IMG/VR virus record: IMGVR_UViG_3300030329_002204
Span: 1-38,064 of that record
Reading direction: 5' to 3' (one strand)
From: a virus
Length of the DNA: 38,064 bases
This document shows, in pieces, positions 23,061 to 34,696 of this stretch; within the stretch, counting starts at the first letter, position 1, and every line of letters starts with the position of its first letter. A program made the translations under genes and the position numbers. The notes under the pieces were generated by a model. It did no database searches. It was not told the DNA's origin and saw nothing but the letters and a program-made list of their open reading frames with translations.

Positions 23061-23079
23061 TAATAATACAGTATTATTA
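23061..23079. promoter_or_regulatory. Perfect 19-bp palindrome before holin-like gene
   Basis: TAATAATAC and GTATTATTA flank a single A. It ends 5 bp before the ATG at 23056, so a bound protein or a folded mRNA could affect the leftward gene. No homologous site was noticed elsewhere in the window. Confidence 0.5.
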
Positions 23080-23125
23080 GTGTTTCATCCTTATACACCC
23101 CCTTTAGGGGGTATAGGTGAAACAC
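23080..23125. repeat. 46-bp palindrome, copy 1
   Basis: An imperfect inverted repeat with outer arms GTGTTTCA and TGAAACAC, inner TATA...CCCCC and GGGGGTATA arms, and a short TTTA centre. A second copy of the same length and plan lies at 25112-25157. It lies upstream of genes on both sides, so it is not a terminator for them. Its ends carry the same GTTTC half-site as the operator array. Likely protein-binding or origin function (inferred). Confidence 0.65.
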
Positions 23126-23127
23126 AA

Positions 23128-23151
23128 CTAGTAATTACTATTAATTACTAG
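23128..23151. repeat. Perfect 10-bp inverted repeat
   Basis: Arms CTAGTAATTA and TAATTACTAG are separated by CTAT. It lies 2 bp from copy 1 of the 46-bp palindrome and 5 bp from the operator array. It is AT-rich and could melt or bind a dimeric regulator. No other copy was noticed. Confidence 0.55.
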
Positions 23152-23156
23152 CTATT

Positions 23157-23235
23157 GTTTCAACGAAATTTCACCATGTTTCAGTGAAACAACCACTCAT
23201 GTTTCATGAAATTTCTTAGTGTTTCAACGAAACAC
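23157..23235. promoter_or_regulatory. Array of four GTTTC/GAAAC operator-like palindromes
   Basis: Four palindromic sites lie within 79 bp: 23157-23169 (GTTTC-AAC-GAAAT), 23177-23191 (TGTTTCA-G-TGAAACA), 23201-23211 (GTTTC-AT-GAAA) and 23219-23235 (GTGTTTC-AAC-GAAACAC). Sites 1 and 3 are followed by GAAATTTC. On the minus strand sites 1 and 4 contain TTGAAA, a possible -35 box. The spacing between site centres is about 21-23 bp, close to two helical turns. The binding protein is not known; the HTH proteins at 30099-30506 and 30578-30859 are candidates. Confidence 0.65.
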
Positions 23236-23422
23236 AGGCATAGTGGCGACTATTCAACAAAAATTTTGTCATGGGTATAAGCCTATATATTAAGAGAAGG
23301 CTAAGCCATGCCCCCCTTTAGCTTAGATTCCACTGCATTGGGCTTGGTCTACTTTAGGGAATTGGAATTAGTTTTTTAGTTGCTGTCTAAGCTTGGATAT
23401 CTATTCAATCCATAGCTAATCT

Positions 23423-29329: not shown

Positions 29330-30106
29330 ATGAATGAGAAAAAATATTATTATGAATGGGGTATTGAATTCCTCGATCAAGATGTTCAGCCCCAATACTG
29401 GGACACACTCCCAGATATGTGGCGCTCTATAAGTGAGGGCATTAAGTCCATTGAGAATTCACATGTAAGAGTTTTTCTTTCTAGAGATGATCGCGTGGAT
29501 GAGGATTGCGGATCAGATCGAGATTGGGTTTACGTTATCAACGGTATACTGCCAACGGAATTTGAGGATAGCCTTAATGAAGTTCCGCAAGAATACCTTG
29601 AAGAGTTTGAGAGGAATAAAGGGTGGCTGTCTATGATAGGAAGGAATGTCTTGGCGATTACTGACTTTGCAGAGATAGGATTTTATTCTGGTCTAATCGT
29701 TGACGCTGTCGAGAGCGGTGCGGTTGGTTCTTTCGCACGAGTCGTACAGTACGAGTGGCAGGTACAGGAACATGATCCTGCACAGAAGCACATCACCGCT
29801 AATGCAATCCTTGCACCTGATGATCCAGAGTACTTGGTTGATAGGCCAGACAATAAGATACATGAGGCATACAGGTTCGGAGTAGATACGAGCGGTAAGC
29901 TTATCAAAGAGAAACGCTGCGCGGTGACCCCTAGCACAATGAAGTACGGTCTAAATAAAATCCTCTCTGGCGATGTGAAGATTGCCCCTTGGATTAAGAA
30001 GGCGTGTACACATGCACAGTTGGAGTTGGATGGCAGCTATATGGATGCCCTCTGCTGTAAGGCCGTCATAGAAGTAGCCTTGTTTGGTGAGTTGATATAT
30101 GCGTAA
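29330..30106 (+). CDS. Hypothetical protein, early region
   Basis: A 258-residue protein that starts 2 bp after the previous stop. It opens MNEKKYYYEWGIEFLDQDVQ and has an N-terminal 90 residues of mixed beta/alpha (SHVRVFLSRDDRVDEDCGSD; RDWVYVINGILPTEFEDSL), a central hydrophobic helix (FAEIGFYSGLIVDAVESGAV) and a C-terminal helical part with CTHAQLELDGSYMDALCCKA. No known family could be named. It overlaps the HTH regulator gene that follows by 8 bp, which suggests coupled expression. Confidence 0.65.
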   Translation: MNEKKYYYEWGIEFLDQDVQPQYWDTLPDMWRSISEGIKSIENSHVRVFLSRDDRVDEDCGSDRDWVYVINGILPTEFEDSLNEVPQEYLEEFERNKGWLSMIGRNVLAITDFAEIGFYSGLIVDAVESGAVGSFARVVQYEWQVQEHDPAQKHITANAILAPDDPEYLVDRPDNKIHEAYRFGVDTSGKLIKEKRCAVTPSTMKYGLNKILSGDVKIAPWIKKACTHAQLELDGSYMDALCCKAVIEVALFGELIYA

Positions 30107-30506
30107 GTCTAAAGTTAGGGACAAGATTAGAAAGCTGATTGAATTTAATTCGCGCATAACCAATGTGCAGATTGCAACAGCACTTGGTATCAGCAAGCAA
30201 CTGGTGTCTTACCATACCAGAACAATGCACATGCCACGGCAGTCAGCCAACAGGGTGTGTGCATACTGTCACGTGAGGATCACTCGATACAACGCATCAG
30301 GGCTGTGTAAAAAGTGCCGTCCCATTTCCTATACTTATGAGTTCAGTTGTACGTGGTGCGGAGAAGTGTATACCTGCGAGGGACACGAGGCTGCACAGCG
30401 TAGGAACAGTAAGAAATATAAGAAGAATCCTGACTTGGATTTTTGTACTAGGAAATGTTCTAGTAAGTATTTCTTTACGCATGGTAATAGCCTCGTCAGT
30501 AGTTGA
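30099..30506 (+). CDS. HTH plus zinc-ribbon regulator
   Basis: A 135-residue basic protein. Residues about 18-42 form a helix-turn-helix (ITNVQIATALGISKQLVSYH). Then come Cys clusters CAYCHVRI, GLCKKCRP, CTWCGEVYTCEGH and CTRKCSSKYF, at least two zinc ribbons in series. The combination suggests a DNA-binding transcription factor. It could bind the GTTTC operator array, but nothing links them directly. The next promoter's -35 (TTGACC) overlaps this gene's stop codon. Confidence 0.7.
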   Translation: MRKSKVRDKIRKLIEFNSRITNVQIATALGISKQLVSYHTRTMHMPRQSANRVCAYCHVRITRYNASGLCKKCRPISYTYEFSCTWCGEVYTCEGHEAAQRRNSKKYKKNPDLDFCTRKCSSKYFFTHGNSLVSS

Positions 30507-30532
30507 CCAGCGTGTAGCTACGATGATATTAT
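30503..30532 (+). promoter_or_regulatory. Sigma70-like promoter overlapping a stop codon
   Basis: TTGACC (30503-30508) and TATTAT (30527-30532) are separated by 18 bp, each five of six to consensus. The TGA of the preceding gene lies inside the -35 box. Transcription would start near 30539, just before the leader hairpin. Confidence 0.6.
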
Positions 30533-30577: not shown

Positions 30578-30859
30578 ATGCTAATAATAAAAACAGATAG
30601 GGATGAGGTTCGATACTACTCATTGTCTGAAGCGAGTAGCCTTATCGTTACAAACCAGTGGGGTGTACCAGTACAGGGCATTCACTCTGAAACTTTAAGG
30701 CGTACCTATCGTGACAGTGGCAGTAAGCATGGCAAGAAGATCGGACGCGATATCTTTTTCTTGGAAGAAGATATCCTTGCCATGAACTATGAGATATCTC
30801 CTCAAGTAGATGAGAAGATATCGGAAACAATACAATTATTTCCAGTAGGAAAGGAGTAA
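30578..30859 (+). CDS. Excisionase-like HTH protein
   Basis: A 93-residue protein. Residues about 13-70 fit a MerR/excisionase-type DNA-binding fold: YYSLSEASSLI starts the first helix and GIHSETLRRTYRDSGSK the recognition helix, followed by a basic wing and an IFFLEEDILAM strand-helix. A GGGGG ribosome site precedes the ATG. No integrase is present, so it is more likely a transcription or replication regulator than a real excisionase. It is the first gene after the promoter at 30503. Confidence 0.6.
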   Translation: MLIIKTDRDEVRYYSLSEASSLIVTNQWGVPVQGIHSETLRRTYRDSGSKHGKKIGRDIFFLEEDILAMNYEISPQVDEKISETIQLFPVGKE

Positions 30860-30862
30860 GAA

Positions 30863-31480
30863 TTGGAACAAAAAAATATATTAATGTTTACAGGTACCAT
30901 GAAGAGTCATGAACAGGCTCCGCAAGGGGGAAAGTGGTTCAACGTAACCATGGTGGACAACAACAATCAGGAGATGAAGTTCACTACATACCTTGCACAA
31001 ATTGCGACCCTGTTTCTCCAGCCTAATGCATACAATGCAACGTGGCAGATTAACTATACGACTCAGCCGTGGTACGCAGCAGCCGATAAGGTGAACAACC
31101 AGCCCAAGCAGGGGGCAGTACCGCAGGGCTACAACTACAGGATAGAGTCAGCTAGCATGACCGCTGCTGCTCCTGCACAACCGCCTGTGGCGAGCCAAGA
31201 CATCAACGAGGTATTGTTTGACGGCTCATCATCCGCACCGCCTGCAACTGAGCCGAATAAATATCAGGCTACATGGTCATCTCCACCGCTAAACTTTACT
31301 GATACGCTGGACACTACAGGGCGATCAATAATCAGGCAGGTAGCGTTCAAGGATATCCAGAACAAGGATGATAAAACACCAGAACAAATCTGGTATCTTA
31401 CAAATTTGTATGAGGCTATACTTCTTGGTAGCTATCAACCAGAACCAAATGATGATTCATTTATTCAAGCAGAGTTTTAA
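30863..31480 (+). CDS. Single-strand DNA-binding-like protein
   Basis: A 205-residue protein started at TTG 6 bp after AAGGAG. Residues 5-100 are beta-rich and OB-fold-like (ILMFTGTMKSHEQAPQGGKW; MKFTTYLAQIATLFLQPNAY; ATWQINYTTQPWYAA). A Pro/Ala/Ser linker follows, and the end is acidic with an aromatic last residue (NDDSFIQAEF), as in SSB tails that bind partner proteins. Position beside nuclease and helicase genes supports a replication role. The family match is inferred from layout, not identity. Confidence 0.55.
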   Translation: MEQKNILMFTGTMKSHEQAPQGGKWFNVTMVDNNNQEMKFTTYLAQIATLFLQPNAYNATWQINYTTQPWYAAADKVNNQPKQGAVPQGYNYRIESASMTAAAPAQPPVASQDINEVLFDGSSSAPPATEPNKYQATWSSPPLNFTDTLDTTGRSIIRQVAFKDIQNKDDKTPEQIWYLTNLYEAILLGSYQPEPNDDSFIQAEF

Positions 31481-31498
31481 AAAAAAATAAATTTTTTT

Positions 31499-31658
31499 AG
31501 AGTCAGAGTGGTTAGGTAAGCTAGTTAGCTTCTCCTTACCGTGACGTTGACTTGTCCGTTACGGCCCTAATCAAAAAGGTGGGATGCTCAAACACTCCAA
31601 GGGAATACGCTTCCTCGTTAAGTTAAGTTCCCACCGTTCTCTGGCTCTTTTGAAAGAG
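31499..31658 (+). ncRNA. Structured RNA element 2, riboswitch-like candidate
   Basis: A closing stem of 10 bp with one G-U pair (AGAGTCAGAG at 31499-31508 with CTCTGGCTCT at 31639-31648) encloses a multi-branched core: GGTTAGG/CCTAATC (31510-31516 with 31566-31572), TAAG/CTTA, GTGACG/CGTTAC (31541-31546 with 31557-31562), GGTGGGA/TCCCACC (31578-31584 with 31629-31635) and GGAA/TTCC inside it. The 3' strand of the closing stem overlaps CTCTT (31645-31649), which can instead pair with AAGAG (31654-31658) in the ribosome site of the nuclease gene. The two foldings exclude each other, as in a translational riboswitch. The ligand is unknown. Confidence 0.65.
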
Positions 31659-31666
31659 GAGTAATC

Positions 31667-32503
31667 GTGAACAAAACATTTATACCAGCAGACAGGAAAC
31701 AAATATCTGTAGCCTTATCAGGAGACTTCATGTCTCAGGTTACCTCTAATAGAGGGGGCAGATATTATGAAGTTGATGGCGATACATATCAGTCAGTTAC
31801 CAGCTTAATTAGTGGTACCTTGAGAAACATTGGTGTCGAAAGGTGGAAGGATATATGGGTAAAGGATCAGCTAAAGCGGTATGAAGGCCATGTCATAACA
31901 CCAGACTTGGCTACCAAGATAGTTACCGCATCAGATAATGAACTCAAGCAATCAGCAGGATTGGGAACCCATATGCATGACATCATTGAACGCCTGTTAA
32001 GGGATGAGGATGTTAATGAATACATGGATGATCAGTATGAACCTGCGGTACGAGCATGGCTCAAGTGGAGAGCGCGTTTTATAGAGTGGCAACTGGTAGG
32101 TACTGAGGTTGGGGTGTACTGTGACGGTAGGTTTGGGGCATTTGCAGGACAGGTAGACGCACTGTTTAAGTTAGGCGATGACTACATGGTGGTGGATTGG
32201 AAGACATCTTCTGGTTTGTATGACTCATCCTTCTTACAAGTTGGAGCATATGCTCACGCCTTAAAGGATATGTATGACATCGTTGGCATCGGCAAGGTTA
32301 AGGCGTGTGTTGTCAGGCTAGTCAATGACTATCCTAAAATTGAAGGGACGCGCAAGAAAAATCGCAGGGTTAAGAAACAGTTTAACGGTGATTGTGAATA
32401 CGCCCTGATAGATGTTGATCATTGGTATCAAACCTTTTCATATATGATGGCTACTAACCTTGGGGTTAAGTCAAAGAGTGATGTGGAGAAGGTGAAGATA
32501 TGA
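31667..32503 (+). CDS. RecB-like PD-(D/E)XK nuclease
   Basis: A 278-residue protein with a GTG start behind AGAGGAG. The N-terminal third contains TYQSVTSLISGTL. GTHMHDIIERLL (about 102-113) is the QxxxE-side helix seen in Cas4/RecB-type nucleases. The active site is GQVDALF (Asp near 164) followed by YMVVDWKTSSG (Asp-x-Lys near 179-181) and QVGAYAHAL. It likely degrades or processes DNA ends in recombination or replication. Its ribosome site lies at the end of structured RNA element 2. It overlaps the Mom-like gene by 4 bp (ATGA). Confidence 0.8.
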   Translation: MNKTFIPADRKQISVALSGDFMSQVTSNRGGRYYEVDGDTYQSVTSLISGTLRNIGVERWKDIWVKDQLKRYEGHVITPDLATKIVTASDNELKQSAGLGTHMHDIIERLLRDEDVNEYMDDQYEPAVRAWLKWRARFIEWQLVGTEVGVYCDGRFGAFAGQVDALFKLGDDYMVVDWKTSSGLYDSSFLQVGAYAHALKDMYDIVGIGKVKACVVRLVNDYPKIEGTRKKNRRVKKQFNGDCEYALIDVDHWYQTFSYMMATNLGVKSKSDVEKVKI

Positions 32504-33198
32504 TCGTATCCCACCAGAAAATCATACGAGATGAGATGGCAAACACAGAGGCGCTATCTAATATGTTCGGTGCGTGGTGGTCAGATATAGATACCAGTAT
32601 TGATAAGGCAGTCATGGAACCTGTCACCTTGCGTACCGCTGCCAAGGTAATAGAGAAGTATGAGTACCTAGGTACTATGTGTAATGCTCCCATGTATGCC
32701 TACGGAATAAGATGGGATGGTGAACTGGCAGGGGTGGTGGTGTATGGCGCACCAAGCCCACCAATTATTGCGACATCTGTTATAGGGGATAAGGATTCCG
32801 ATAAAGTAATTCAACTAGGCAGGGGAGCCTGTGTTCACTGGGCGCACCCACACGCAGGTTCCAAGCTAATAGCATACTCACTCAAGGAAATTGAAAAGCT
32901 GGGCTACCAGATAGTTGTTGCCTTTACTGATCCAGATGCTGGGGAGATAGGTACCCTGTATCAGGCAACCAACTGGCTGTACTGTGGGGCTACCGCCAAG
33001 CGCCCTGATTACTTTGGCGCTGATGGCGTAAGACGCACAGGACATTTCCGTAAGGGAGAAGTTAAAGAACTAACCATGCAACCGCGCACTCGTAAAGGGC
33101 GCTATGTTTATTTACTTGGAACTAAGAAACAAAAGAGGGAAAACAAATCTAAATTACTGTGGCCTGTAGAGCGGTATCCTAAGAGGGCAGGGCTATGA
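32500..33198 (+). CDS. Mom-like DNA modification protein
   Basis: A 232-residue protein with the GNAT-type core of the phage Mu Mom family: YAYGIRWDGELAGVVVYG strands, then RGACVHWAHPHAGSKLIAYS and VVAFTDPDAGEIGTLYQATN followed by WLYCGAT. The final pair, an FxDPxxGxxGxLYQATNW motif, is the hallmark I recognise. Mom modifies adenine in DNA and so protects phage DNA from host restriction enzymes. The last 50 residues are basic. Overlaps its neighbours by 4 bp at each end, so expressed with the nuclease. The exact base product is not proven. Confidence 0.75.
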   Translation: MIVSHQKIIRDEMANTEALSNMFGAWWSDIDTSIDKAVMEPVTLRTAAKVIEKYEYLGTMCNAPMYAYGIRWDGELAGVVVYGAPSPPIIATSVIGDKDSDKVIQLGRGACVHWAHPHAGSKLIAYSLKEIEKLGYQIVVAFTDPDAGEIGTLYQATNWLYCGATAKRPDYFGADGVRRTGHFRKGEVKELTMQPRTRKGRYVYLLGTKKQKRENKSKLLWPVERYPKRAGL

Positions 33199-33428
33199 AC
33201 AATGAAGATTGGAAACAACGGTACGATGCACTAGAGAAAGACTTTGATTTGATAGTCAGAGAGAACGAATATATGTGGGGTATGCTGTACAAGCTGGAGA
33301 GAACCGCCACCGTTGGAGAACTTATGGATATTCTTAATAGACATCCTGTGGGTCGTACATATTCAGCTAGAAAAAAAATAAAAATAAATAAACCTGAAGA
33401 AAGGGGATATCAATGGAGCCAACATTAG
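33195..33428 (+). CDS. Short coiled-coil protein before helicase
   Basis: A 77-residue protein. Residues 5-45 are helical with heptads (WKQRYDALEKDFDLIVRENE, YMWGMLYKLERTATVGELMD). The tail is Lys-rich (KKIKINKPEE). Its end overlaps the helicase start by 16 bp. It has no known family. It could be a helicase accessory by position. Part of the tail is encoded by an A-rich run that resembles the intergenic A tracts in this block. Confidence 0.6.
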   Translation: MNNEDWKQRYDALEKDFDLIVRENEYMWGMLYKLERTATVGELMDILNRHPVGRTYSARKKIKINKPEERGYQWSQH

Positions 33429-34696
33429 AACAGCAGGGATCAGGCTACAAGATAACATGGGCTAGTAAAAACGTAGAGATGCGTGTAAGAAATATTAAGC
33501 CTAAAGGATTCAAGGCAGAGGTAGCGGTCTTACTGAACAACATGCCAGTACACCGCAGCAATCCTACCTTGGATTCTGTATCTGGTATGGATGCCTTTGC
33601 AAGAAAGCTAAACAGACGCAGGCCACTCGATGACTATGGGGTAGATTGGGAACAACTCGTAGAGGATTTGTCTGGAATAGTTATCGACACCTACCGCACT
33701 GGTGAAAAGGAAGTGCAACTAAAGGATGTGTCATTAGGGGATAAGTTACTATGGCGTGTTGATAACCTGCTCGTAGAAGGGGACATCTCTATAGTGTGGG
33801 CTGATGGCGGTACAGGTAAATCTATGTTCGCATTGTTCCTCAGTACTCTTGTCCAGCAGGGGTACATGAGTACTGAACATGGGTTGATAGTGGAGCCAGG
33901 AAATGTTTTATACCTAGACTACGAAACAACCAGCAGGGAAATTGCTACACGTTCCAGATTAATTCAAGCTGGGTTGGGGATAGACGCTGCGGATGCAGGG
34001 AACACATCCTCTCGTATTACCTACAGAAAATGTGACCAACCATTTACTGATGAGGTAGATCGTATACGAGATATTATATTTAAACACTCCATAAACGTGG
34101 TGATTGTAGACAGTATGGGTATGGCATGTGGTGACCTGAACGATATGGACGCGGTGCTGCAATTCTTTAGGGAACTACGGAAGCTGACCGATACAACTAT
34201 TCTTGTGGTTACCCATGCTAACAGGCAGGGAACTTTCTTTGGTAGCGCATATACACATAACAGTGGCAGGTTAATATGGGAAGCCAAGAGATCAGGAAGT
34301 AACGATAGCGGCATGGACTTTTCTCTATTCTGTAGGAAAGCAAACAACGTACCTATGCAACCACCACAGTCGTGGTCAGTAGACTTCTCTGACGGCAAGG
34401 CCGTGTATGTCCGAAAGGATGTATTTGAAACTGATGACGCTGGTGAACTATCTTATTTCAGATTGGTTTATAACGTACTCAAGGAAGATGGCGAAAGCAC
34501 TAGGGATCACCTCAAGGATAGAATTAAAATACTCAAGCCAAAAGATAGACAAGGCAAGGACATACCATCTGAAAAAACTGAGCGCAATGTAGAGTCAGCA
34601 ATATCTAAGCAGAAAAAAGAAGGTACTGTAGAAGAGGTAGACGGTTTACTTAGACTAACAAAGGAGCGTGAATCAGAATGGCAAGAGATAGCGTAA
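33413..34696 (+). CDS. RepA-like replicative helicase/ATPase
   Basis: A 427-residue RecA-fold protein (AAA_25/RepA-like). Walker A is WADGGTGKSM near residue 130-139; NVLYLDYETTSREIATR follows, Walker B is NVVIVDSMGMA near 228-236, and LVVTHANRQG near 264 is the sensor segment. The first 100 residues are a separate mixed domain. The last 80 form a winged-helix-like region (RDHLKDRIKILKPKDRQ). RepA-type helicases unwind DNA at plasmid and phage origins. No polymerase is seen, so host polymerase is likely used. The next gene encodes a TubC_N-like protein, a common partner position. Confidence 0.8.
   Translation: MEPTLEQQGSGYKITWASKNVEMRVRNIKPKGFKAEVAVLLNNMPVHRSNPTLDSVSGMDAFARKLNRRRPLDDYGVDWEQLVEDLSGIVIDTYRTGEKEVQLKDVSLGDKLLWRVDNLLVEGDISIVWADGGTGKSMFALFLSTLVQQGYMSTEHGLIVEPGNVLYLDYETTSREIATRSRLIQAGLGIDAADAGNTSSRITYRKCDQPFTDEVDRIRDIIFKHSINVVIVDSMGMACGDLNDMDAVLQFFRELRKLTDTTILVVTHANRQGTFFGSAYTHNSGRLIWEAKRSGSNDSGMDFSLFCRKANNVPMQPPQSWSVDFSDGKAVYVRKDVFETDDAGELSYFRLVYNVLKEDGESTRDHLKDRIKILKPKDRQGKDIPSEKTERNVESAISKQKKEGTVEEVDGLLRLTKERESEWQEIA

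Follow-up and report, generated by a model that had tools for sequence, protein, structure and literature searches.

What is the folded, noncoding stretch that precedes the exonuclease gene of this tailed phage, and is it the riboswitch that its architecture suggests? The window, meaning the whole stretch of DNA analysed here, is a virus record of 38,064 bases, assigned to a tailed phage by its terminase, and the element in question lies between an A/T palindrome and the Shine-Dalgarno (SD) sequence of the nuclease gene (Table 1). That gene does encode the RecB-like nuclease named in the first-pass annotation of this DNA, as its product is a PD-(D/E)XK protein (PF12705, 4.5e-8) related to phage exonucleases (phrog_298, 1.4e-25). 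The gene upstream of the element is predicted to encode an OB-fold, SSB-like protein; its AlphaFold (AF2) model has the OB strand order and Foldseek returned SSB matches (best E 2.5e-4), while no Pfam or other sequence-family match was found. Its acidic tail reads DDSFIQAEF. The candidate promoter of the operon has an extended -10 and a TGTGC..GCACA hairpin after it, and by eye a -10-like sequence with such a hairpin is also present in several relatives.

Table 1. Positions of the element, its parts and the surrounding features (window coordinates unless a relative is named).
Feature	Position	Strand	Basis or remark
Winged-helix gene	30099-30506	+	operon in right part of window
Candidate promoter TTGACC-N18-TATTAT	30503-30532	+	consensus scan, 10/12 matches; upstream of g30578, SSB-like and nuclease genes
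g30578, small gene/protein	30578-30859	+	operon
SSB-like OB-fold gene (predicted), acidic C-terminus	30863-31480	+	upstream of element; AF2 model and Foldseek
A/T palindrome AAAAAAATAAATTTTTTT	31479-31499	+	element lies 3' of it here; in relatives the SD lies directly 3'
AAAAATAAATTTTT-type palindromes	window 28673, 31479; L006 1537; L007 2366; L008 866, 2118, 4903, 9012		
Structured RNA element (limits: closing stem)	31499-31648	+	predicted fold; not in the same gap of relatives
Closing stem P1, 5' strand AGAGUCAGAG	31499-31508	+	pairs with 31639-31648; one U-G pair
Closing stem P1, 3' strand CUCUGGCUCU	31639-31648	+	pairs with 31499-31508
P2, inner stem	31509-31516 / 31566-31573	+	fold prediction; encloses hairpins 31518-31531 and 31539-31564
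Hairpin A CCGUGACG-UUGACUUGUC-CGUUACGG	31539-31564	+	helix 31539-31546/31557-31564; apex CGUUGACUUGUCCG
P3 arm GGUGGGA/UCCCACC, inner hairpin around UACGC	31578-31635	+	closed by 31578-31584/31629-31635; contains UACGCUUCC
Alternative hairpin CTCTT/AAGAG over SD	31645-31649 / 31654-31658	+	seen in sequence
Shine-Dalgarno AGAGGAG of nuclease gene	31655-31661	+	AGGAG core 31657-31661; GTG start 31667
PD-(D/E)XK exonuclease (RecB/Cas4-like)	31667-32503	+	PF12705, phrog_298
Mom-like gene	32500-33198	+	operon, behind nuclease
AAA ATPase, helicase-like	33413-34696	+	operon

The gap between the SSB-like and nuclease genes holds plus-strand frames of at most 26 codons, if we set aside the tail of a 40-codon frame overlapping the SSB-like gene. 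One of these, at 31584-31664, has its ATG after AAGGTGGG and a TAA stop whose last base is three positions 5' of the nuclease GTG start, and its translation might unfold the element and feed ribosomes to the nuclease SD. We consider such leader-peptide coupling extremely unlikely, since its SD spacing is weak, its sequence is not conserved and, by eye, the element of relative L008 (below) has no matching frame. A scan for intrinsic terminators (a short GC-rich hairpin followed by a U-run) found none on the plus strand of 31499-31670, and ARAGORN found no tRNA or tmRNA in the window.

The 10-bp closing stem and the branched core that the first-pass annotation described are present both in the sequence and in the predicted fold, with a mean pair probability for P1 of 0.62-0.98, varying with transcript context. 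The annotation went on to propose a translational riboswitch, in which P1 and a hairpin that hides the SD exclude each other and a small molecule bound by the branched core picks one of them. The SD hairpin can be found in the sequence, where it does overlap the SD; however, enforcing it costs 7.0 kcal/mol relative to the minimum free energy (MFE) structure, and it is 0.01-3% populated across every transcript context tested. Nor are the two structures mutually exclusive, as only the outer four P1 pairs (CUCU) compete with the hairpin and the six inner pairs could stay. It is true that the 3' strand of P1 can pair with the SD in the window (CUCUU/AAGAG), and that by eye the elements of relatives L006 and L008 offer a CCUU/AAGG pairing from a different stem sequence, but pairing of this sort is possible for any pyrimidine strand. 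Thus the proposed switch is energetically lopsided, which leaves the riboswitch reading unsupported on this count.

The fold as a whole is moderately strong, above average but unexceptional in its own genome, since the 160-nt element has an MFE of -52.7 kcal/mol against -43.9 +/- 4.0 for shuffled sequences (z -2.19; 6 of 200 shuffles did as well), takes about 20th place by z among 475 stretches of 160 nt from the same genome, and is closed by one of 62 stems of at least 10 bp that span 120-170 nt in the window (P1 is among the 8 of these with at least five G-C pairs). Such a rank is what might be expected of a chance fold, that is, of a lineage-specific intergenic insertion with no RNA function. 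The strongest fold of the window lies elsewhere, at 23061-23240 (z -8.4; 0 of 200 shuffles as good), in the space that separates the structural genes, read leftward, from the early genes, read rightward. It begins with a cruciform GTGTTTCA..TGAAACAC hairpin, after which GTTTCA..TGAAAC palindromes are repeated, an arrangement that resembles clustered sites for a repressor or initiator.

We compared the locus with its relatives, a small group of syntenic phages in IMG/VR found with the nuclease and ATPase proteins. All seven relatives with the same gene order (L001, L004, L006, L007, L008, L010 and L031) have an SSB-nuclease gap of about 10-60 nt that does not contain the element, and these include the closest relative, whose nuclease is 80% identical. 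In L006, L007 and L008 the gap consists of an A/T palindrome, AAAAAAATAA(A)TTTTTTT, with GGAG at once after it; the window shares this palindrome, and there the order is palindrome, element, SD. Because the element separates the SD from a palindrome that the relatives also have, it looks inserted, and the simplest reading is an insertion in the window's lineage. A/T palindromes of the AAAAATAAATTTTT type are found repeatedly between genes in these phages, in most cases with GGAG right after them (Table 1). The Mom-like DNA modification gene is cargo at different places of this region, lying behind the nuclease in the window and before the winged-helix gene in L001 (171-827) and L031 (2662-3171).

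In L001 and L031 a GC-rich palindromic hairpin occupies the gap instead (GGGGGAAGGTGCACACCTTCCCCC and GGGGTAAGGTGTACACCTTACCCC, respectively). Palindromic hairpins with the core AGGTGTACACCT or AGGTGCACACCT precede the nuclease in L001 (2956-2979), in the L031 gap and in L032, a more distant relative whose gap contains other genes; all three lack the 160-nt element there. Stable structure thus recurs between these genes without the element, and this, together with the stable closed domain of the window's own element, would fit an intercistronic RNA that serves mRNA processing or stability (as an RNase barrier or cleavage site) or yields a separate small RNA, with no translational switch. Five relatives (L004, L006, L007, L008 and L010), however, have no GC-rich hairpin there, and processing or stability alone leaves unexplained the conserved apex sequence described next; we regard this explanation as possible, and it ranks second among those considered here.

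A probable homologue of the element is present two genes upstream of the window's site. Between the winged-helix gene and g30578, L006 (507-663) and L008 (3938-4078; the same in L011) carry a noncoding element of 141-157 nt that lies directly 5' of the g30578 SD in the same operon; its conserved ends pair (AGGGG/CCCCU), and its 5' end forms a hairpin, GGUCG-UWGACUUGUC-CGACC. The 14-nt apex of hairpin A, CGUUGACUUGUCCG, which can be drawn as a UU bulge and a CUUG tetraloop, is identical in the window and L008 and agrees with L006 at 13 of 14 positions; dinucleotide shuffles gave as good a match in 2 of 2000 cases for L008 and 44 of 2000 for L006. The motif TNGACTTGTC occurs once each in the window, L006, L008 and L011, always inside the element, and is absent from the other five records searched, and UACGCUUCC is common to the window and L006 in the same order downstream of the apex. 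Below the apex the stem of hairpin A pairs in all three sequences, with two compensatory changes and one wobble change in five pairs, and versions of the alignment slid along the stem lose this agreement. The shared motifs appear to be conserved as RNA rather than protein, since the window and L006 have TACGCTTCC in different frames, and between L006 and L008 the frames agree for six codons only. We also considered GACTTGTC in L031 (3984) as a further copy and rejected it, as it is inside the g30578 coding frame.

The covariance check that the first-pass annotation had suggested came out divided: compensatory changes are found in helix 31539-31546/31557-31564 of the probable homologues, but a covariance model built from L006 and L008 (R1) recognises only the apex (31544-31559) in the window, where it scores 9.5 bits against 12.1 bits for a chance match in the same stretch. 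The covariation itself was equalled in 45 of 500 column shuffles and comes from only three distinct sequences, two of them alike in the apex stem. The resemblance of the window to L006 and L008 rests mainly on 14-16 nt, and in our judgement hairpin A is probably homologous among them, while for the element as a whole we lean slightly against homology. If the shared 14-mer were coincidence, as the chance reading requires, the failure of R1 to recognise the whole element would be expected, as would the E value of 0.14 that the first blastn search gave this match over all relative loci. Against coincidence, the match forms a hairpin apex in all three sequences, each time within noncoding sequence of comparable length immediately 5' of an SD in that operon, and compensatory changes are seen in the stem beneath it. 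We hold chance to be rather unlikely, and place it third.

The element could also work as DNA rather than RNA, for example as a site for replication or single-strand initiation that changes its intergenic position. Each record that has the element has one copy, its neighbours are genes for a helicase-like AAA ATPase, an SSB-like protein and an exonuclease, and the minus strand folds nearly as well as the plus strand (-48.2 versus -52.5 in the window, and equally in L008). Such a site is nonetheless very unlikely, as the element is absent from the sequenced parts of other relatives, contains G-U pairs within its helices, and always lies directly before an SD on the coding strand.

Searches for further members gave no clear additions in viral or genome collections, an outcome that the chance reading would also predict. 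Rfam 15, searched at both gathering and E-value thresholds, returned nothing credible, in agreement with the earlier statement that no named class fits. BLAST of the window, L006 and L008 elements against phages, and of the L006 element against plasmids, gave chance matches only, and a DNA pattern scan with an exact 21-mer from the window found nothing. The pattern GACTTGTCCG..GAAAGTCCCG recovered L006, L008 and L011 plus one chance match within a coding frame; GACTTGTCCG..TACGCTTCC recovered L006 and an unrelated inverted repeat; GACTTGTCCG..AAGTTCCCA had two matches, both in open frames; and all nine matches from a pattern scan of 84,980 species genomes were inside open reading frames. An RNase P/MRP-like CR-I (GAAAGUCCC in L006 and L008), an HDV-like ribozyme, a group II intron fragment and a retron ncRNA were considered by eye and rejected, as neither a partner motif nor a reverse transcriptase was seen. 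The element has no match in Rfam or in the phage and plasmid collections and so is unnamed within what was searched; its kind, a structured phage mRNA leader, is already known.

These comparisons bear directly on the riboswitch. A switch serving the nuclease would be expected to accompany that gene and to preserve its core, and the element does neither: most relatives are without it, its copies precede different genes, and no aptamer-like core is conserved. With the translational riboswitches of Rfam it shares a closing stem in which the 3' strand is able to pair with the SD, but it differs from them in matching no Rfam class, in having no conserved aptamer core and an unfavourable SD hairpin, and in not being tied to one gene. 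We consequently judge a small-molecule riboswitch very unlikely, and consider an inserted control element of the phage, conserved in a single hairpin, more likely. That a cis-acting structured RNA precedes the nuclease gene remains plausible.

The explanation that we rank first, and hold tentatively, is an accessory RNA module that acts in cis and would tune recombination genes through its conserved hairpin, a putative protein-binding, operator-like site. The module would have been inserted between the A/T palindrome and the nuclease SD of a recombination operon (the g30578 protein, the OB-fold SSB-like protein and the exonuclease), and in the mRNA it would form a closed multi-branched domain in which the SD hairpin stays unformed. 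Hairpin A, with its possible UU bulge and CUUG tetraloop, would be the recognition site for a phage or host protein, and through it the module may act as a translational operator or as a site of mRNA processing, and so control the level of the recombination protein encoded downstream. We favour an operator because the arrangement seen here, in which an SD of a recombination operon is preceded by a conserved apex on a variable, covarying stem, is the one that phage translational operators show; one point against it is that the copies stand before different genes.

The gene next to the element is predicted to encode an SSB-like protein, and leader hairpins or pseudoknots are known targets of phage replication proteins; the gp43 operators of T4 and RB69 are identical in the top 10 bases of a hairpin that differs in length (PMC3014915). 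The resemblance to this gene 43 (DNA polymerase) operator lies in a leader hairpin upstream of the SD of a phage replication gene, with the same apex on a different lower stem (PMC3014915); the known operator, however, comprises 16-18 bases with no branched domain, its protein is known, and its loop is UAAC where ours is CUUG. The leader pseudoknot of gene 32 (SSB) in T4, T2 and RB69 is likewise a structured leader upstream of an SD, there that of the SSB gene (PMC3014915). It differs in being a small pseudoknot with an unstructured A+U-rich stretch; moreover, the SSB-like gene is upstream of the element in the window and downstream of it, as the second gene, in L006 and L008. A loop pseudoknot of GACUU with AAGUC or AAGUU could be drawn in the element, though a 5-nt match of this kind is expected by chance.

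A bolder form of the operator explanation, which we think quite unlikely, is that of a mobile noncoding phage RNA module that would insert exactly between an intergenic spacer and an SD, so that the operon gene behind it would come under control of a protein reading the bulged CUUG hairpin, with copies placed differently within the same operon from one related phage to another. If the element is not real, it illustrates that a single sequence can yield a good-looking riboswitch architecture that the relatives are without. If it is real, it would be an unnamed RNA element whose site within one recombination operon varies between related phages, and the relocation of RNA control elements in phage genomes would become directly testable.
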